Assembly: GCF_026341125.1 (NCBI RefSeq)
Contig: NZ_JAPEOR010000003.1
Coordinates: 1,240,001-1,304,000 of the forward strand
From: Streptomyces sp. NBC_01142
Lineage (GTDB): Bacteria; Actinomycetota; Actinomycetes; Streptomycetales; Streptomycetaceae
Reading direction: 5' to 3'
DNA: 64,000 nt
Part shown: in pieces, positions 50,828 through 61,022 of the stretch
How the letters are laid out: each line of letters opens with the position of its first letter
How positions within the stretch are numbered: position 1 is the first letter of the stretch
Notes under the pieces: generated by a model
Told to the model about the DNA's origin: nothing
Database searches by the model: none
Seen by the model: only the letters and a program-made list of their open reading frames with translations
Made by a program: the position numbers and the translations under genes

Positions 50828-51694
50828 TCAGGCGGCCGGGGGCAGGAGTACGAGGAGCTTGCCCACACCGTCAATGGTGAGGTGGGGTCTCCGCTCCTGC
50901 GGCAGTGCCATGAAGTGATCCGCTGGGTGGATACCGGTGGCCACCGCGATGGCGAGGGCGTCGGCGCGACGGGCCATCGCCATCTCCAGTTCCGGGTCGT
51001 CCCCGACGACGGCGAGTTCCTGCGGGGCGGCGCCCAGCCGTTGCGCGGCGCAGTGCAGCCCGATCAGCGACGGTTTGCCCACGACCTGTTCGGTGACGCC
51101 CGTGATGCTGCTGATCATGGCGCAGATGGCCCGGGAGGTGCCCAGGGCCCTGCCGTCGGCGGTGGCGAAGAACACCGACTGTGAGCAGCTGTACAGGGTG
51201 GCGCCGCCGAGGACGGCATGGCAGGACGCTTCCAGGTCGTCCATGGTGAACTCGCGGTACCAGCCGGCCAGTACGGCGTCGGCTTCCGGCTTCCCCTTCG
51301 GCTCGACGATCTCGATGCCGGCCTGGCGCAGCGGCTCCTTGAGGCCTTCGCCGCCCAGCACCAGGACCCTTCGGTGGCCCTTGGCCAGGAAGTGGTCGAC
51401 GGCGCTGGTGGCGGGGGTGAGCATCGCGTCGTCGGACAGGTCGAAGCCGATCCCGCGCAGTGTCTGTGCGTATGCCTCGGGTGTGCGGGTGGTTCCGTTG
51501 GTGAAGGTGAGCCAGGGAAGGCCGCGTGCGGTGAGCGCGGCGGTGAGCTCCAGGGCTCCGGGGAGGGGCGTGAGCCCGTGGTTGCGCCGGTCGCCCAGCA
51601 CGAGGGTGCCGTCGAGATCGAACACGATGCCGCGGACGCTTTGCAGACGATCGGTCAGGGAGACGGCGCCTACGTCAGTCGGCTCGGCGGTCAC
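50828..51694 (-). CDS. HAD-family (NagD-type) phosphatase
   Basis: A 288-residue HAD hydrolase. Motif I is GIVFDLDGTLVLGD, motif II FTNGTTRTPEAYAQ, motif III the Lys in VVGKPSLIGL, and motif IV VGDDPELEMAMARRADAL. The cap sequence between motifs II and III is of the C2 type seen in NagD and phosphoglycolate/4-nitrophenyl phosphatases. It is the last gene of the seven-gene operon: its GTG start at 51694 overlaps the carboxyltransferase stop by 20 bases. A role in hydrolysing a phosphorylated intermediate or by-product fits the upstream phosphotransferase, but is inferred. Confidence 0.88.
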   Translation of the reverse strand: MTAEPTDVGAVSLTDRLQSVRGIVFDLDGTLVLGDRRNHGLTPLPGALELTAALTARGLPWLTFTNGTTRTPEAYAQTLRGIGFDLSDDAMLTPATSAVDHFLAKGHRRVLVLGGEGLKEPLRQAGIEIVEPKGKPEADAVLAGWYREFTMDDLEASCHAVLGGATLYSCSQSVFFATADGRALGTSRAICAMISSITGVTEQVVGKPSLIGLHCAAQRLGAAPQELAVVGDDPELEMAMARRADALAIAVATGIHPADHFMALPQERRPHLTIDGVGKLLVLLPPAA

Positions 51695-53150
51695 GGTGCA
51701 GCTCCAGTCGGAAGTCGGGGCGTTCCAGGATGAGTTCGGGTGTCGCCGGGCGCGTGCGCATGCCGTTGAGCAGGTCGAGCACGGGCTTCAGCCGGGGGTT
51801 GTAGTGCTGCCGGGCGGGGCCGGCGGCCACCATGGCGTCCACCTGCTCGGCGGGCATCGTGGCCCGCAGGAGCAGTTCCTCGTCACTGATGCCGCGGGGG
51901 AATCGGCCGCGTAGCTCGGCGACGGTGGGCGGTGGCGGTTCCTCGGCGAGTTCCCTGGCCCGCGGCCGGGCCAGGATGCGATCGGTGACGTCCGGGTCGA
52001 CGGGACCGGTCGGCCTGCCGAAGTTGCCGAGCACGTATCGGATCACCGGGTCGGAGACGTTCTCGTAGCGTTCGGCGCCGATCACGTTGTACAGCGCCTG
52101 GGTGCAGACCATCTGCGGGAAGGGGGTGACCATGATGGGGTGGCCCAGTTCGGCGCGGACCCAGGTCACCTCCTCGATGACCGCGTCGAAGCGGTCGCTG
52201 AAGCCCAGTTCGTCGAGCTGGCGGCGCAGGGTGGTCATCACGCCACCCGCCACCTGGTGGCGCATGAACGCGGCGTCGAAGTCCCGGGGACCGCCCACGG
52301 GCAGCCCCTCAGCCGCGGCCATGTGGTGGAAGTAGTCCGCCGCCACGCCGAGCAGCCGGTCGTCGACGTCCACGGTGTGGCCGAACTCGCGCAGGTTGGC
52401 CACCACCTGCTGGGCGTTGGGTAGCGAAGTGCCGCCCGCGAGGGCTCCGCAGGCCACCTGGAGCGCCTGCACCCCCAGGTCGGCCGCCTTGAGGTAGGTC
52501 AGGCCGGGCAGTCCGATGGTGCAGTGGGAGTGCAGCTCCAGCGGTTTGCCGGAGAGGTTGCGGATGACGGCCGGGATCAGCGTGGTGGCGCGTTCTGTTG
52601 TCAGTAGTCCGCCGGGGTCCTTGATGTAGACGCGGTCGATGTCCGGGCAGGCCGCCATCTGGGAGGCCAGCGAGCCGTAGTGGGCGTCGTCGTGCACGTC
52701 GCTGACGGTGTAGGTCAACGCTCCGACGATCTCCGTGGCACCGGCCGCCCGGATCATCCGCGCGGACTCGCGCACGGCGTCCATGTCGTGCATGGGGTCG
52801 AGCACGACGTACCGGGTGACGCCGTTGGCCACCAGCCGGTCGTAGACCAGCTGCATGAACTCGGGGTGGGCGACCTCCCAGGAGATGAAGCGCAGCCCGG
52901 TGCCGATGAACTGCAGGGGGGTGTTGGGCATGGCACGGTGCGTGAGCCGGATACGTTCCCAGGGGTCCTCACGTTGGGTCCGCACCGCCATGCCCATGTG
53001 GGTGCTGGAGGTGTAGTCGAGGGCCCGGAAGCCCACGCGGTCCAGAACGGGGGCGATCTGGAGGATCTTGCCGGTGTCCAGTCCGGTGGCGCTCCACAGA
53101 CTCTGGTTGCCGTCGCGCAGCGACACGTCGACGAGCTGGATGTCAGCCAT
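51675..53150 (-). CDS. Biotin-dependent carboxyltransferase of pyruvate carboxylase type
   Basis: A 491-residue TIM-barrel carboxyltransferase related to pyruvate carboxylase domain B and oxaloacetate decarboxylase alpha. Metal and catalytic residues are kept: Asp8 with LRDGNQ (residues 11-16), the Lys of VYIKDPGG (Lys177, usually carbamylated) and ELHSHCT (His207, His209). The segment that normally reads WGGATFD and helps hold pyruvate is replaced by YTSSTHMGMAV (46-56), so the carboxyl acceptor may differ from pyruvate. A conserved C-terminal helical domain (PRGISDEELLLRATMPAEQV) is present. It overlaps the biotin carboxylase gene by eight bases. There is no fused biotin domain; the carrier is separate. 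Confidence 0.88.
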   Translation of the reverse strand: MADIQLVDVSLRDGNQSLWSATGLDTGKILQIAPVLDRVGFRALDYTSSTHMGMAVRTQREDPWERIRLTHRAMPNTPLQFIGTGLRFISWEVAHPEFMQLVYDRLVANGVTRYVVLDPMHDMDAVRESARMIRAAGATEIVGALTYTVSDVHDDAHYGSLASQMAACPDIDRVYIKDPGGLLTTERATTLIPAVIRNLSGKPLELHSHCTIGLPGLTYLKAADLGVQALQVACGALAGGTSLPNAQQVVANLREFGHTVDVDDRLLGVAADYFHHMAAAEGLPVGGPRDFDAAFMRHQVAGGVMTTLRRQLDELGFSDRFDAVIEEVTWVRAELGHPIMVTPFPQMVCTQALYNVIGAERYENVSDPVIRYVLGNFGRPTGPVDPDVTDRILARPRARELAEEPPPPTVAELRGRFPRGISDEELLLRATMPAEQVDAMVAAGPARQHYNPRLKPVLDLLNGMRTRPATPELILERPDFRLELHRDRRAD

Positions 53151-60174: not shown

Positions 60175-60209
60175 TCGACAGGGCATCTCCGCAGGTGAGA
60201 GCAGGTCCC

Positions 60210-61022
60210 ATGCGGAACTACCAGGTGAAAACGATCAGCTCCTTGGAACGCGGGCTTCAGGTGCTGCGGGTCCTTCAGGAGATGCGTGCCGCGAGCCTCC
60301 ACGATCTGCACCAGGCAACCGGCATCCCCAAGGCCACGCTGCTCCGGATCCTTCACACGTGCAACCAGCAGGACCTGGTGTGGCAGCGGCTGGCCGACGG
60401 GGCGTTCATCGCGAGCCTCAGACCGCAGCGCGCCCCGTACGACGACGCCGAGTGGCTCGGCGAACTGGCGTCGCAGGTTCTGGAAGAGCTGTGCGAACGC
60501 GTGATGTGGCCCTCCGTACTGACCGTGCCACGCCTCGATTACATGGAGACGATCGACACGAACAGCCCGAAGGCCTACTTCGACGAGGTCGTACCCGTCG
60601 CTCCCATCGGCTTCCGCTCGCACATGCTGCTCGGGGCCTCGGGCCGGGCCTACATCGCCTTCTCTCCCGAGCGGGAGCGGGAAGCGGTCCTGCGCCGCCT
60701 TTGCGAGCACGACGCCCCCGGGAACGAGTACGCCCACGACGCTGGATGGCTGCGCCGTCTCCTGGCGACCACTCGGTCACGTGGGTACAGCGTGCGGGCA
60801 CCGGAGTACGACTTCGACGGACGCAACTCGATCGCCGTTCCGATCCGTGTGCATGGAGAGGTGCTGGGGTGCGTCAACGTGACCTGGCGCAGGACGGTCA
60901 TGTCCGCACAGGAAGTGGCGCGTCGTCACCTGGATGACCTGCAGGACGCGGTGCGCCGGATCGAGGAAGGGGTCGCGGCAGAGGCCCCACGACGACTGGG
61001 CGGCCCTGCCGCGGGCGCGTGA
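60210..61022 (+). CDS. IclR-family transcriptional regulator
   Basis: A 270-residue regulator. Its N-terminal winged HTH reads VKTISSLERGLQVLRVLQEM and GIPKATLLRILHTCNQQDLV, and the C-terminal effector domain holds TIDTNSPKAYFDEVVPVAPI, GRAYIAFSPEREREAVLRRL and NSIAVPIRVHGEVLGCVNV. It resembles the MhpR/PcaR branch that controls aromatic or short-chain acid catabolism. It is divergent from the seven-gene operon and probably controls it. ATG 60210 is chosen; GTG 60195 would add five residues. Confidence 0.9.
   Translation: MRNYQVKTISSLERGLQVLRVLQEMRAASLHDLHQATGIPKATLLRILHTCNQQDLVWQRLADGAFIASLRPQRAPYDDAEWLGELASQVLEELCERVMWPSVLTVPRLDYMETIDTNSPKAYFDEVVPVAPIGFRSHMLLGASGRAYIAFSPEREREAVLRRLCEHDAPGNEYAHDAGWLRRLLATTRSRGYSVRAPEYDFDGRNSIAVPIRVHGEVLGCVNVTWRRTVMSAQEVARRHLDDLQDAVRRIEEGVAAEAPRRLGGPAAGA

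Follow-up and report, generated by a model that had tools for sequence, protein, structure and literature searches.

A Streptomyces Operon of the Hpe/Acv Type, Probably for the Phosphorylation and Carboxylation of 4-Hydroxyphenyl Methyl Ketones

Introduction

What is the purpose of an operon that joins a kinase of the phenol-phosphorylating type to a biotin-dependent carboxylase and an acetoacetyl-coenzyme A (CoA) synthetase? The question is raised by Streptomyces sp. NBC_01142, in a 64,000-nucleotide stretch of contig NZ_JAPEOR010000003.1 (hereafter the window), where positions 50828 to 61022 hold eight genes, seven of them intact on the minus strand (50828–60088) and the eighth a divergent IclR gene (60195–61022). 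A preliminary description, made from the sequence alone, had proposed that a PpsAB-type kinase and a biotin carboxylase act on the methyl group of a ketone to give a beta-keto acid and then its CoA ester, and had held that no such pathway was described. That chemistry is supported by Hpe homology, and the proposed order of phosphorylation, carboxylation and CoA capture matches the Hpe pathway. The claim of novelty fell, as the Hpe gene set was published in 2022 (PMC9618137), and the operon belongs to this known Hpe/Acv kind, not to an unknown ketone pathway; what was put forward as a new pathway is thus moved into a known one. It is probable that the operon consists of an Hpe/Acv-type six-gene core (kinase H-I, carboxylase C-BC-CT and phosphatase D) together with a CoA ligase, E, and that it serves 4-hydroxyphenyl methyl ketones. 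The analysis shows directly which genes are present and in what order, their motifs, the predicted fold, the selection on them and their co-occurrence; the reactions and substrate assigned here are carried over from characterised homologues.

The Operon and Its Genes

The tight minus-strand operon with its divergent regulator, as first described, is borne out by the coordinates and by the Pfam and NCBIfam families of the products.

60195..61022, plus strand: IclR-family regulator, divergent (PF09339, PF01614)
60160..60174: palindrome TTTCACTGGGTGAAA, arms of 6 and spacer of 3, between E and the IclR gene; candidate IclR operator
58004..60088, minus strand: hpeE-like acyl-CoA synthetase (E) of the acetoacetyl-CoA synthetase family (TIGR01217, 804.8 bits; cut-off 520.9)
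56162..57994, minus strand: hpeH-like dikinase subunit (H) with substrate-binding and swivel domains and His568 in SDIGGTMSH (PF00391, motif)
55040..56134, minus strand: hpeI-like dikinase subunit (I), ATP-grasp, PPDK_N (PF01326)
54540..55043, minus strand: hpeC-like biotin carboxyl carrier protein (C), motif ETMKL (PF00364, motif)
53143..54543, minus strand: biotin carboxylase subunit, BC (PF00289, PF02786, PF02785)
51675..53150, minus strand: carboxyltransferase subunit, CT, PYC_OADA (PF02436)
50828..51694, minus strand: hpeD-like HAD-IIA (NagD-type) phosphatase (D), DLDGT motif (PF13344, PF13242, motif)

The open reading frame coordinates leave a gap of 9 bp between E and H and of 27 bp between H and I, and the genes then overlap by 4 (I/C), 4 (C/BC), 8 (BC/CT, assuming the CT start at ATG 53150, beyond which the open frame extends to 53243) and 20 (CT/D). 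The start of E is most likely the ATG at 60088 behind an AGGAGG, not the open-frame start at 60211, which overlaps the IclR gene. Both arms of TTTCACTGGGTGAAA are kept in the related loci L002 and L004, and one base differs in L003. The source genome (10.1 Mb, 15 contigs, rated 100% complete) carries a single copy of H and a second acetoacetyl-CoA synthetase, 52% identical to E.

Comparison with Published Pathways

In Rhodococcus rhodochrous GD02 the genes hpeHICBADEF encode the Hpe pathway, whose known substrates are 4-hydroxyacetophenone and acetovanillone (PMC9618137). As that work describes it, HpeHI phosphorylates the phenol hydroxyl of either compound, and the biotin-dependent HpeCBA then carboxylates the acetyl methyl group of the phosphorylated substrates, turning one ATP to ADP, with no detectable carboxylation of the free forms. 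The phosphate is retained through carboxylation and removed by HpeD; the proposal is that HpeE, whose closest characterised homologue is acsA2, forms the CoA ester and, with the CouO-like HpeF, completes the pathway (PMC9618137). The preliminary description had a ketone or enol phosphorylated, a point on which the studied homologue differs, since it is the phenol hydroxyl that receives the phosphate and keeps it through carboxylation. In Table 1 of the same paper, HpeB (49.3 kDa) is labelled carboxyltransferase and HpeA (57.4 kDa) biotin carboxylase; given the two sizes and the C-BC-CT order of related operons, these labels look exchanged.

With the GD02 system the window operon shares the two-part dikinase, the three-part biotin carboxylase, the NagD-like phosphatase within the operon and the acetoacetyl-CoA-synthetase-like ligase, as well as the overall order of the kinase, carboxylase and phosphatase genes. 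It differs in that E lies upstream of H, whereas the GD02 ligase gene lies downstream, in its divergent IclR gene and in the lack of hpeF from operon and genome. A plasmid of Rhodococcus sp. JS3073 carries an H-I-C-BC-CT-D-E-F operon with a homologue for each of the seven window proteins (identities H 47, I 41, C 53 over 72 residues only, BC 51, CT 44, D 36 and E 43%), and a Rhizobium leguminosarum plasmid with the same order, including E and F, is closer to the window (H 55, I 54, C 39, BC 60, CT 51, D 47 and E 50%).

Two further published systems can be likened to the operon by their descriptions. Sphingobium SYK-6 has a syntenous six-gene core, acvABCDEF, and is described as having no homologues of HpeE and HpeF (PMC9618137); its last two steps are carried out by non-homologous enzymes encoded elsewhere (PMC9618137, PMC13101465), so HpeF is dispensable for this type of pathway. 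Aromatoleum aromaticum EbN1 resembles the window in combining a carboxylase, the 4-hydroxyacetophenone carboxylase HacABC, with an acetoacetyl-CoA-ligase-like protein, AcsA1, and a predicted thiolase, TioL1, is its last enzyme; it differs in being anaerobic and sigma-54 regulated (PMC10715001). HacABC is taken to be the XccBCA of PMC9618137, and one locus recovered here (L057, Rhodocyclaceae) resembles EbN1 Hac only in its context. Three such pathways are compared in PMC13101465.

Transferred to the window, these reactions suggest the following scheme. H and I would move the beta-phosphate of ATP, by way of His568, onto the phenol hydroxyl; BC would charge the carrier protein C; and CT would deprotonate the acetyl methyl group of the phospho-ketone and then carboxylate it. 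D would take the phosphate off the carboxylated product, and E would form an aroylacetyl-CoA. The IclR protein would control expression, probably from the palindrome at 60160–60174. A phosphatase is needed because the phosphate survives carboxylation; an enol phosphate would presumably lose its phosphate in that step and need none.

The Kinase Subunits

H and I have the make-up of a two-component phenol dikinase, that is, an ATP-grasp subunit and a substrate/swivel subunit with a T/SxxGGxxxH motif. H is of the PRK08296 type and carries a PEP-utilizers mobile domain (Pfam/NCBIfam). The best match of I in the PDB is 9goj, which scores 277.6 bits while the second entry reaches 254.8, and 9GOJ is the crystal structure of HpeI (PMC12167813). 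The AlphaFold model of H (mean pLDDT 82.6) finds its best fold matches in six rifampin phosphotransferase entries (TM 0.39–0.58 on the query, rmsd, root-mean-square deviation, 7–14 Å); PPDK fits the model locally only, whereas rifampin phosphotransferase fits it more widely, and a similar fold match was reported for HpeH (PMC12167813). In the same report no activity was detected once HpeH His581 had been changed (PMC12167813).

The residue before the catalytic histidine is reported as Cys in GD02 HpeH and as Ser in CreH and phenylphosphate synthase (PMC12167813). It is Ser in the window H and Cys in the JS3073 H, which is therefore taken as GD02-type. The nearest relatives of the window H are from Streptomyces: in a quick, midpoint-rooted tree of 51 rows, in which the phenol and cresol kinases sit on long branches, it groups with three Streptomyces sequences (support 100) within a set of 21 (support 99). 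The phenylphosphate synthase on an Azoarcus KH32C plasmid and two kinases on Rhodococcus plasmids, taken from gene context as cresol-type (CreHI-like), have subunits 43–47% identical to those of the window, H being 45% identical to the kinase of the Azoarcus phenylphosphate carboxylase cluster and 43% to the two Rhodococcus kinases; they differ in having no adjoining biotin carboxylase genes in the stretches seen.

The Carboxyltransferase Active Site

In an alignment of 56 carboxyltransferases from the window, JS3073 and relatives, D13, Q16, K177, H207 and H209 (window numbering) are invariant in all 56. Position 84, which aligns with the Arg of the 'LLRG' motif in pyruvate carboxylase, OadA and transcarboxylase, is Thr in 55, including the window protein, and Ser in the remaining one. 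We take this Arg to bind the carboxylate of pyruvate (human R644). Since the five residues are invariant and Thr84 stands in place of the Arg, the catalytic centre is, as far as the sequence tells, kept and the pyruvate contact lost, and the operon, on the same grounds, encodes a three-component biotin carboxylase with a putative non-pyruvate carboxyltransferase. This residue signature could serve to distinguish carboxylases of the present type from pyruvate carboxylases.

Distribution and Conservation of Gene Order

A genome scan by similarity to the window H yielded 79 loci, kept from 272 confirmed stretches, of which 59 extend at least 7 kb beyond H and 20 are shorter. I, C, BC, CT and D follow H in order on one strand in 45 of the 59 longer loci (and in 3 of the 20 shorter ones). 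E occurs anywhere in the locus in 31 of the 59 and directly upstream of H in 21, and 16 have a divergent relative of the IclR gene on the upstream side of H. The 14 misses comprise five H copies (L020, L032, L037, L040 and L041) that lack all five partners on their downstream side and nine with two to four of them. Because the gene block recurs in at least three phyla and the ratios of nonsynonymous to synonymous substitution (dN/dS) of its genes are 0.10–0.41, the operon is more than a chance association. The Hpe/Acv core, kinase and carboxylase together, is thus found in Streptomyces and several other lineages; a limited literature search surfaced no published Streptomyces case of hydroxyacetophenone phosphorylation and carboxylation. 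An account of the kinase-with-carboxylase arrangement calls it uncommon, at 52 of 836 cases (PMC13101465), with which a share of 45 in 59 is compatible, as the loci were picked by their similarity to the window H.

Some loci depart from the common plan. In L032 and L037 a complete minus-strand H-to-D cluster faces a second, divergent H copy that has no I downstream. H, I, C, CT and D are present in L044, L049, L069, L070, L071, L074, L078 and L080 with no biotin carboxylase match in the locus, and an extra gene, a cupin in L069, lies between H and I in L069, L070, L074, L078 and L080. A zinc-type alcohol dehydrogenase gene is found near the operon in 20 loci.

Downstream Genes, Opposing Evidence and Alternatives

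The genes expected downstream were sought in the window genome and in 28 of the 79 carrier genomes, hand-picked with isolates and long contigs first and including several metagenome-assembled genomes. An HpeF-type gene is present in all 28 other carriers (27 at 450 bits or more, one at 319), five of which (L010, L018, L021, L059 and L073) were already known to have HpeF beside the operon, four of these having supplied rows of the search model. A PobA-like gene at 450 bits or more occurs in 27 of the 29 carriers, only 10 of the 29 being above the curated cut-off, and PcaH is above its cut-off in 16 of the 29, so that a lack of PcaH is not rare among carriers. In a sample of 81 Streptomyces genomes, H was found only in the window's own; 24 had an HpeF-type gene, none of them together with H, and 57 a PobA-like gene (E-value of 1e-60 or less). 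HpeF alone is therefore not specific, given its presence in 24 of 81; its presence in all the other carriers examined exceeds this Streptomyces background, the two samples differing in taxa. HpeF-type and PobA-like genes are both present in three Streptomyces relatives (E 83–89% and H 90–92% identical), two of which also have PcaH; this suggests that operons of this type serve the usual substrates.

Several findings weigh against the assignment to 4-hydroxyphenyl methyl ketones. In the window operon and genome the CouO-like amidohydrolase HpeF was not found, the best match reaching 31 bits, nor did the genome yield PobA (best match 63 bits; G004 also lacks it, at 51 bits) or PcaH (best match 34 bits). 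Matches to PF00775 in this genome are weak and three only (60.3, 58.6 and 38.8 bits), two of them lying in frames that, on our own reading, have Tat-signal-like N-termini, and the 4-hydroxybenzoate/protocatechuate funnel of pobA and pcaGH was accordingly not found. The tree places the window H outside the GD02-type clade (support 97), at 47% identity to the JS3073 H, and the operon is connected to characterised enzymes by way of JS3073, the sequence of 9GOJ and its gene context rather than by the sequences of GD02, SYK-6 or EbN1. Among bisphenol-A degraders, Pseudomonas putida YC-AE1 has an UPF0261 protein in place of the kinase, and its authors, as reported, assign the 4-hydroxyacetophenone step to a '4-hydroxyacetophenone hydrolase'. 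Because HpeF was looked for and not found, the operon is not classed as a complete Hpe pathway, and because HpeF, PobA and PcaH were not found in the genome, some other enzyme must carry out the final step, which might be a thiolase as proposed for Aromatoleum aromaticum. Such a genome, with none of the three, lends itself to a simple test of the ways in which the pathway can end.

The same three absences, in a genome rated 100% complete and beside seven genes with dN/dS far below 1, leave some room for a variant in which this Streptomyces lineage applies the chemistry to another phenolic methyl ketone or ends it elsewhere, such as in the formation of an aroyl-CoA by a thiolase, with the acid excreted or used otherwise. 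The predicted last enzyme of EbN1 is the thiolase TioL1, and HpeHI is reported to phosphorylate other phenols as well, but the HpeF-type, PobA-like and PcaH genes of the three Streptomyces relatives speak for the usual substrates, and we regard this alternative as rather unlikely. A related and tentative thought, to which we give slightly more room while not favouring it, is that in this Streptomyces lineage the operon has lost its tie to the hydroxybenzoate funnel yet remains under selection, for another phenolic methyl ketone or for a purpose met by aroylacetyl-CoA or, via a thiolase, aroyl-CoA. It is also conceivable, though unlikely, that the operon is an unused leftover, the upper part having survived while the lower pathway was lost in a region rich in insertion sequences (IS), which is compatible with the enzyme assignments made above. 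The missing HpeF, PobA and PcaH would fit such a loss, as would an ISL3 zinc-ribbon fragment (49768–50463), a partial aldehyde dehydrogenase gene (38912–40021) and a partial branched-chain permease gene (41254–41799). Against this, all seven frames are intact, and pairwise dN/dS between the window and the three Streptomyces relatives is 0.10–0.41 over the seven genes, compared with 0.14–0.32 among the relatives themselves. The values for E, I, CT and D are close to those between relatives, and only single comparisons with L003 are somewhat higher (C 0.41 vs. 0.32, BC 0.24 vs. 0.14–0.16 and H 0.18 vs. 0.14–0.17). Intact frames and ratios far below 1 disfavour simple decay, although a very recent loss would be invisible to dN/dS.

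The preliminary description named acetone and butanone as examples of the substrate; on that model the enol form would be phosphorylated and then carboxylated, with acetoacetyl-CoA or a homologue as the captured product. Nothing found favours such aliphatic ketones except the absence of HpeF from the window genome, acetoacetyl-CoA presumably needing no HpeF. E does belong to the acetoacetyl-CoA synthetase family, and acsA2 is, we assume, such a synthetase, but HpeE itself is closest to acsA2, as the GD02 work reports (PMC9618137). The characterised kinase relatives are described as acting on phenols, the phosphatase in the conserved block fits a phosphate that survives carboxylation, and an HpeF-type gene accompanies the operon in 28 of 28 other carriers, all of which makes an aliphatic substrate very improbable. 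Still less credible, to the point of being negligible, is a phosphoenolpyruvate (PEP) synthase and a pyruvate carboxylase brought side by side by chance. H and I do match PEP-synthase models, and CT matches models of pyruvate carboxylase subunit B and OadA, but all of these matches are below curated cut-offs. The two outcomes that were to overturn the original proposal, a simple PEP synthase and a CT acting on pyruvate, are both disfavoured, the former by the predicted, rifampin phosphotransferase-like fold of H, which fits PPDK locally only, and by the absence from the Pfam results for both subunits of PF02896, which we take to be the PEP/pyruvate-binding domain and third domain of PEP synthase, and the latter by Thr84 in place of the pyruvate-binding Arg; this identity was rejected. 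Acetone carboxylase (Acx) was rejected too, since it consists of AcxABC subunits without biotin and the families of the operon are a biotin carboxylase, a biotin carrier and a PYC_OADA carboxyltransferase. A biotin-dependent acetone carboxylase is reportedly present in Rhodococcus B276. The assignment to 4-hydroxyphenyl methyl ketones is retained as the probable one.

Clusters in Bisphenol-A-Associated Strains

Hydroxyacetophenones derive from lignin and from bisphenol A, which gives the enzymes practical use. A tblastn search of plasmids with the window CT gave 17 records at an E-value of 1e-60 or less. The P. putida YC-AE1 cluster consists of a divergent regulator, E, the UPF0261 protein, C, BC, CT, D and an amidohydrolase, with identities to the window of 65 (E), 43 (C), 70 (BC), 68 (CT) and 56% (D), and this bisphenol-A degrader is reported to remove 4-hydroxyacetophenone, an intermediate of bisphenol A, which lends the assignment further support. 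In Sphingomonas bisphenolicum AO1 a UPF0261 protein stands with C, BC, CT and D (BC 60, CT 57 and D 47% identical to the window), and a beta-keto acid cleavage enzyme is encoded nearby. Both clusters thus share the carboxylase and phosphatase with the window and have UPF0261 in the place of HpeHI, and this protein may be an unrelated phenol kinase. The UPF0261 (Tm-1-like) proteins of NZ_CP047312.1 (L098) and NZ_AP018819.1 (L097) have no meaningful similarity to the window H or I. On pBAR1 of S. bisphenolicum, a thioesterase and the beta-keto acid cleavage enzyme (PF05853) are encoded upstream of the carboxylase genes (L097:4588-5915), and neither E nor F is annotated.

Neighbouring Sequences

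The partial aldehyde dehydrogenase and branched-chain-type permease genes are remnants of another catabolic locus. ISL3 transposase genes lie near them at 41839–43410 and 43492–45027. Further transposases (IS605 OrfB, DDE types, IS110 and Mutator) are encoded at 12003–25919 and 35246–36499 of the window, and a GH92 glycosidase gene is located at 14154–17654.

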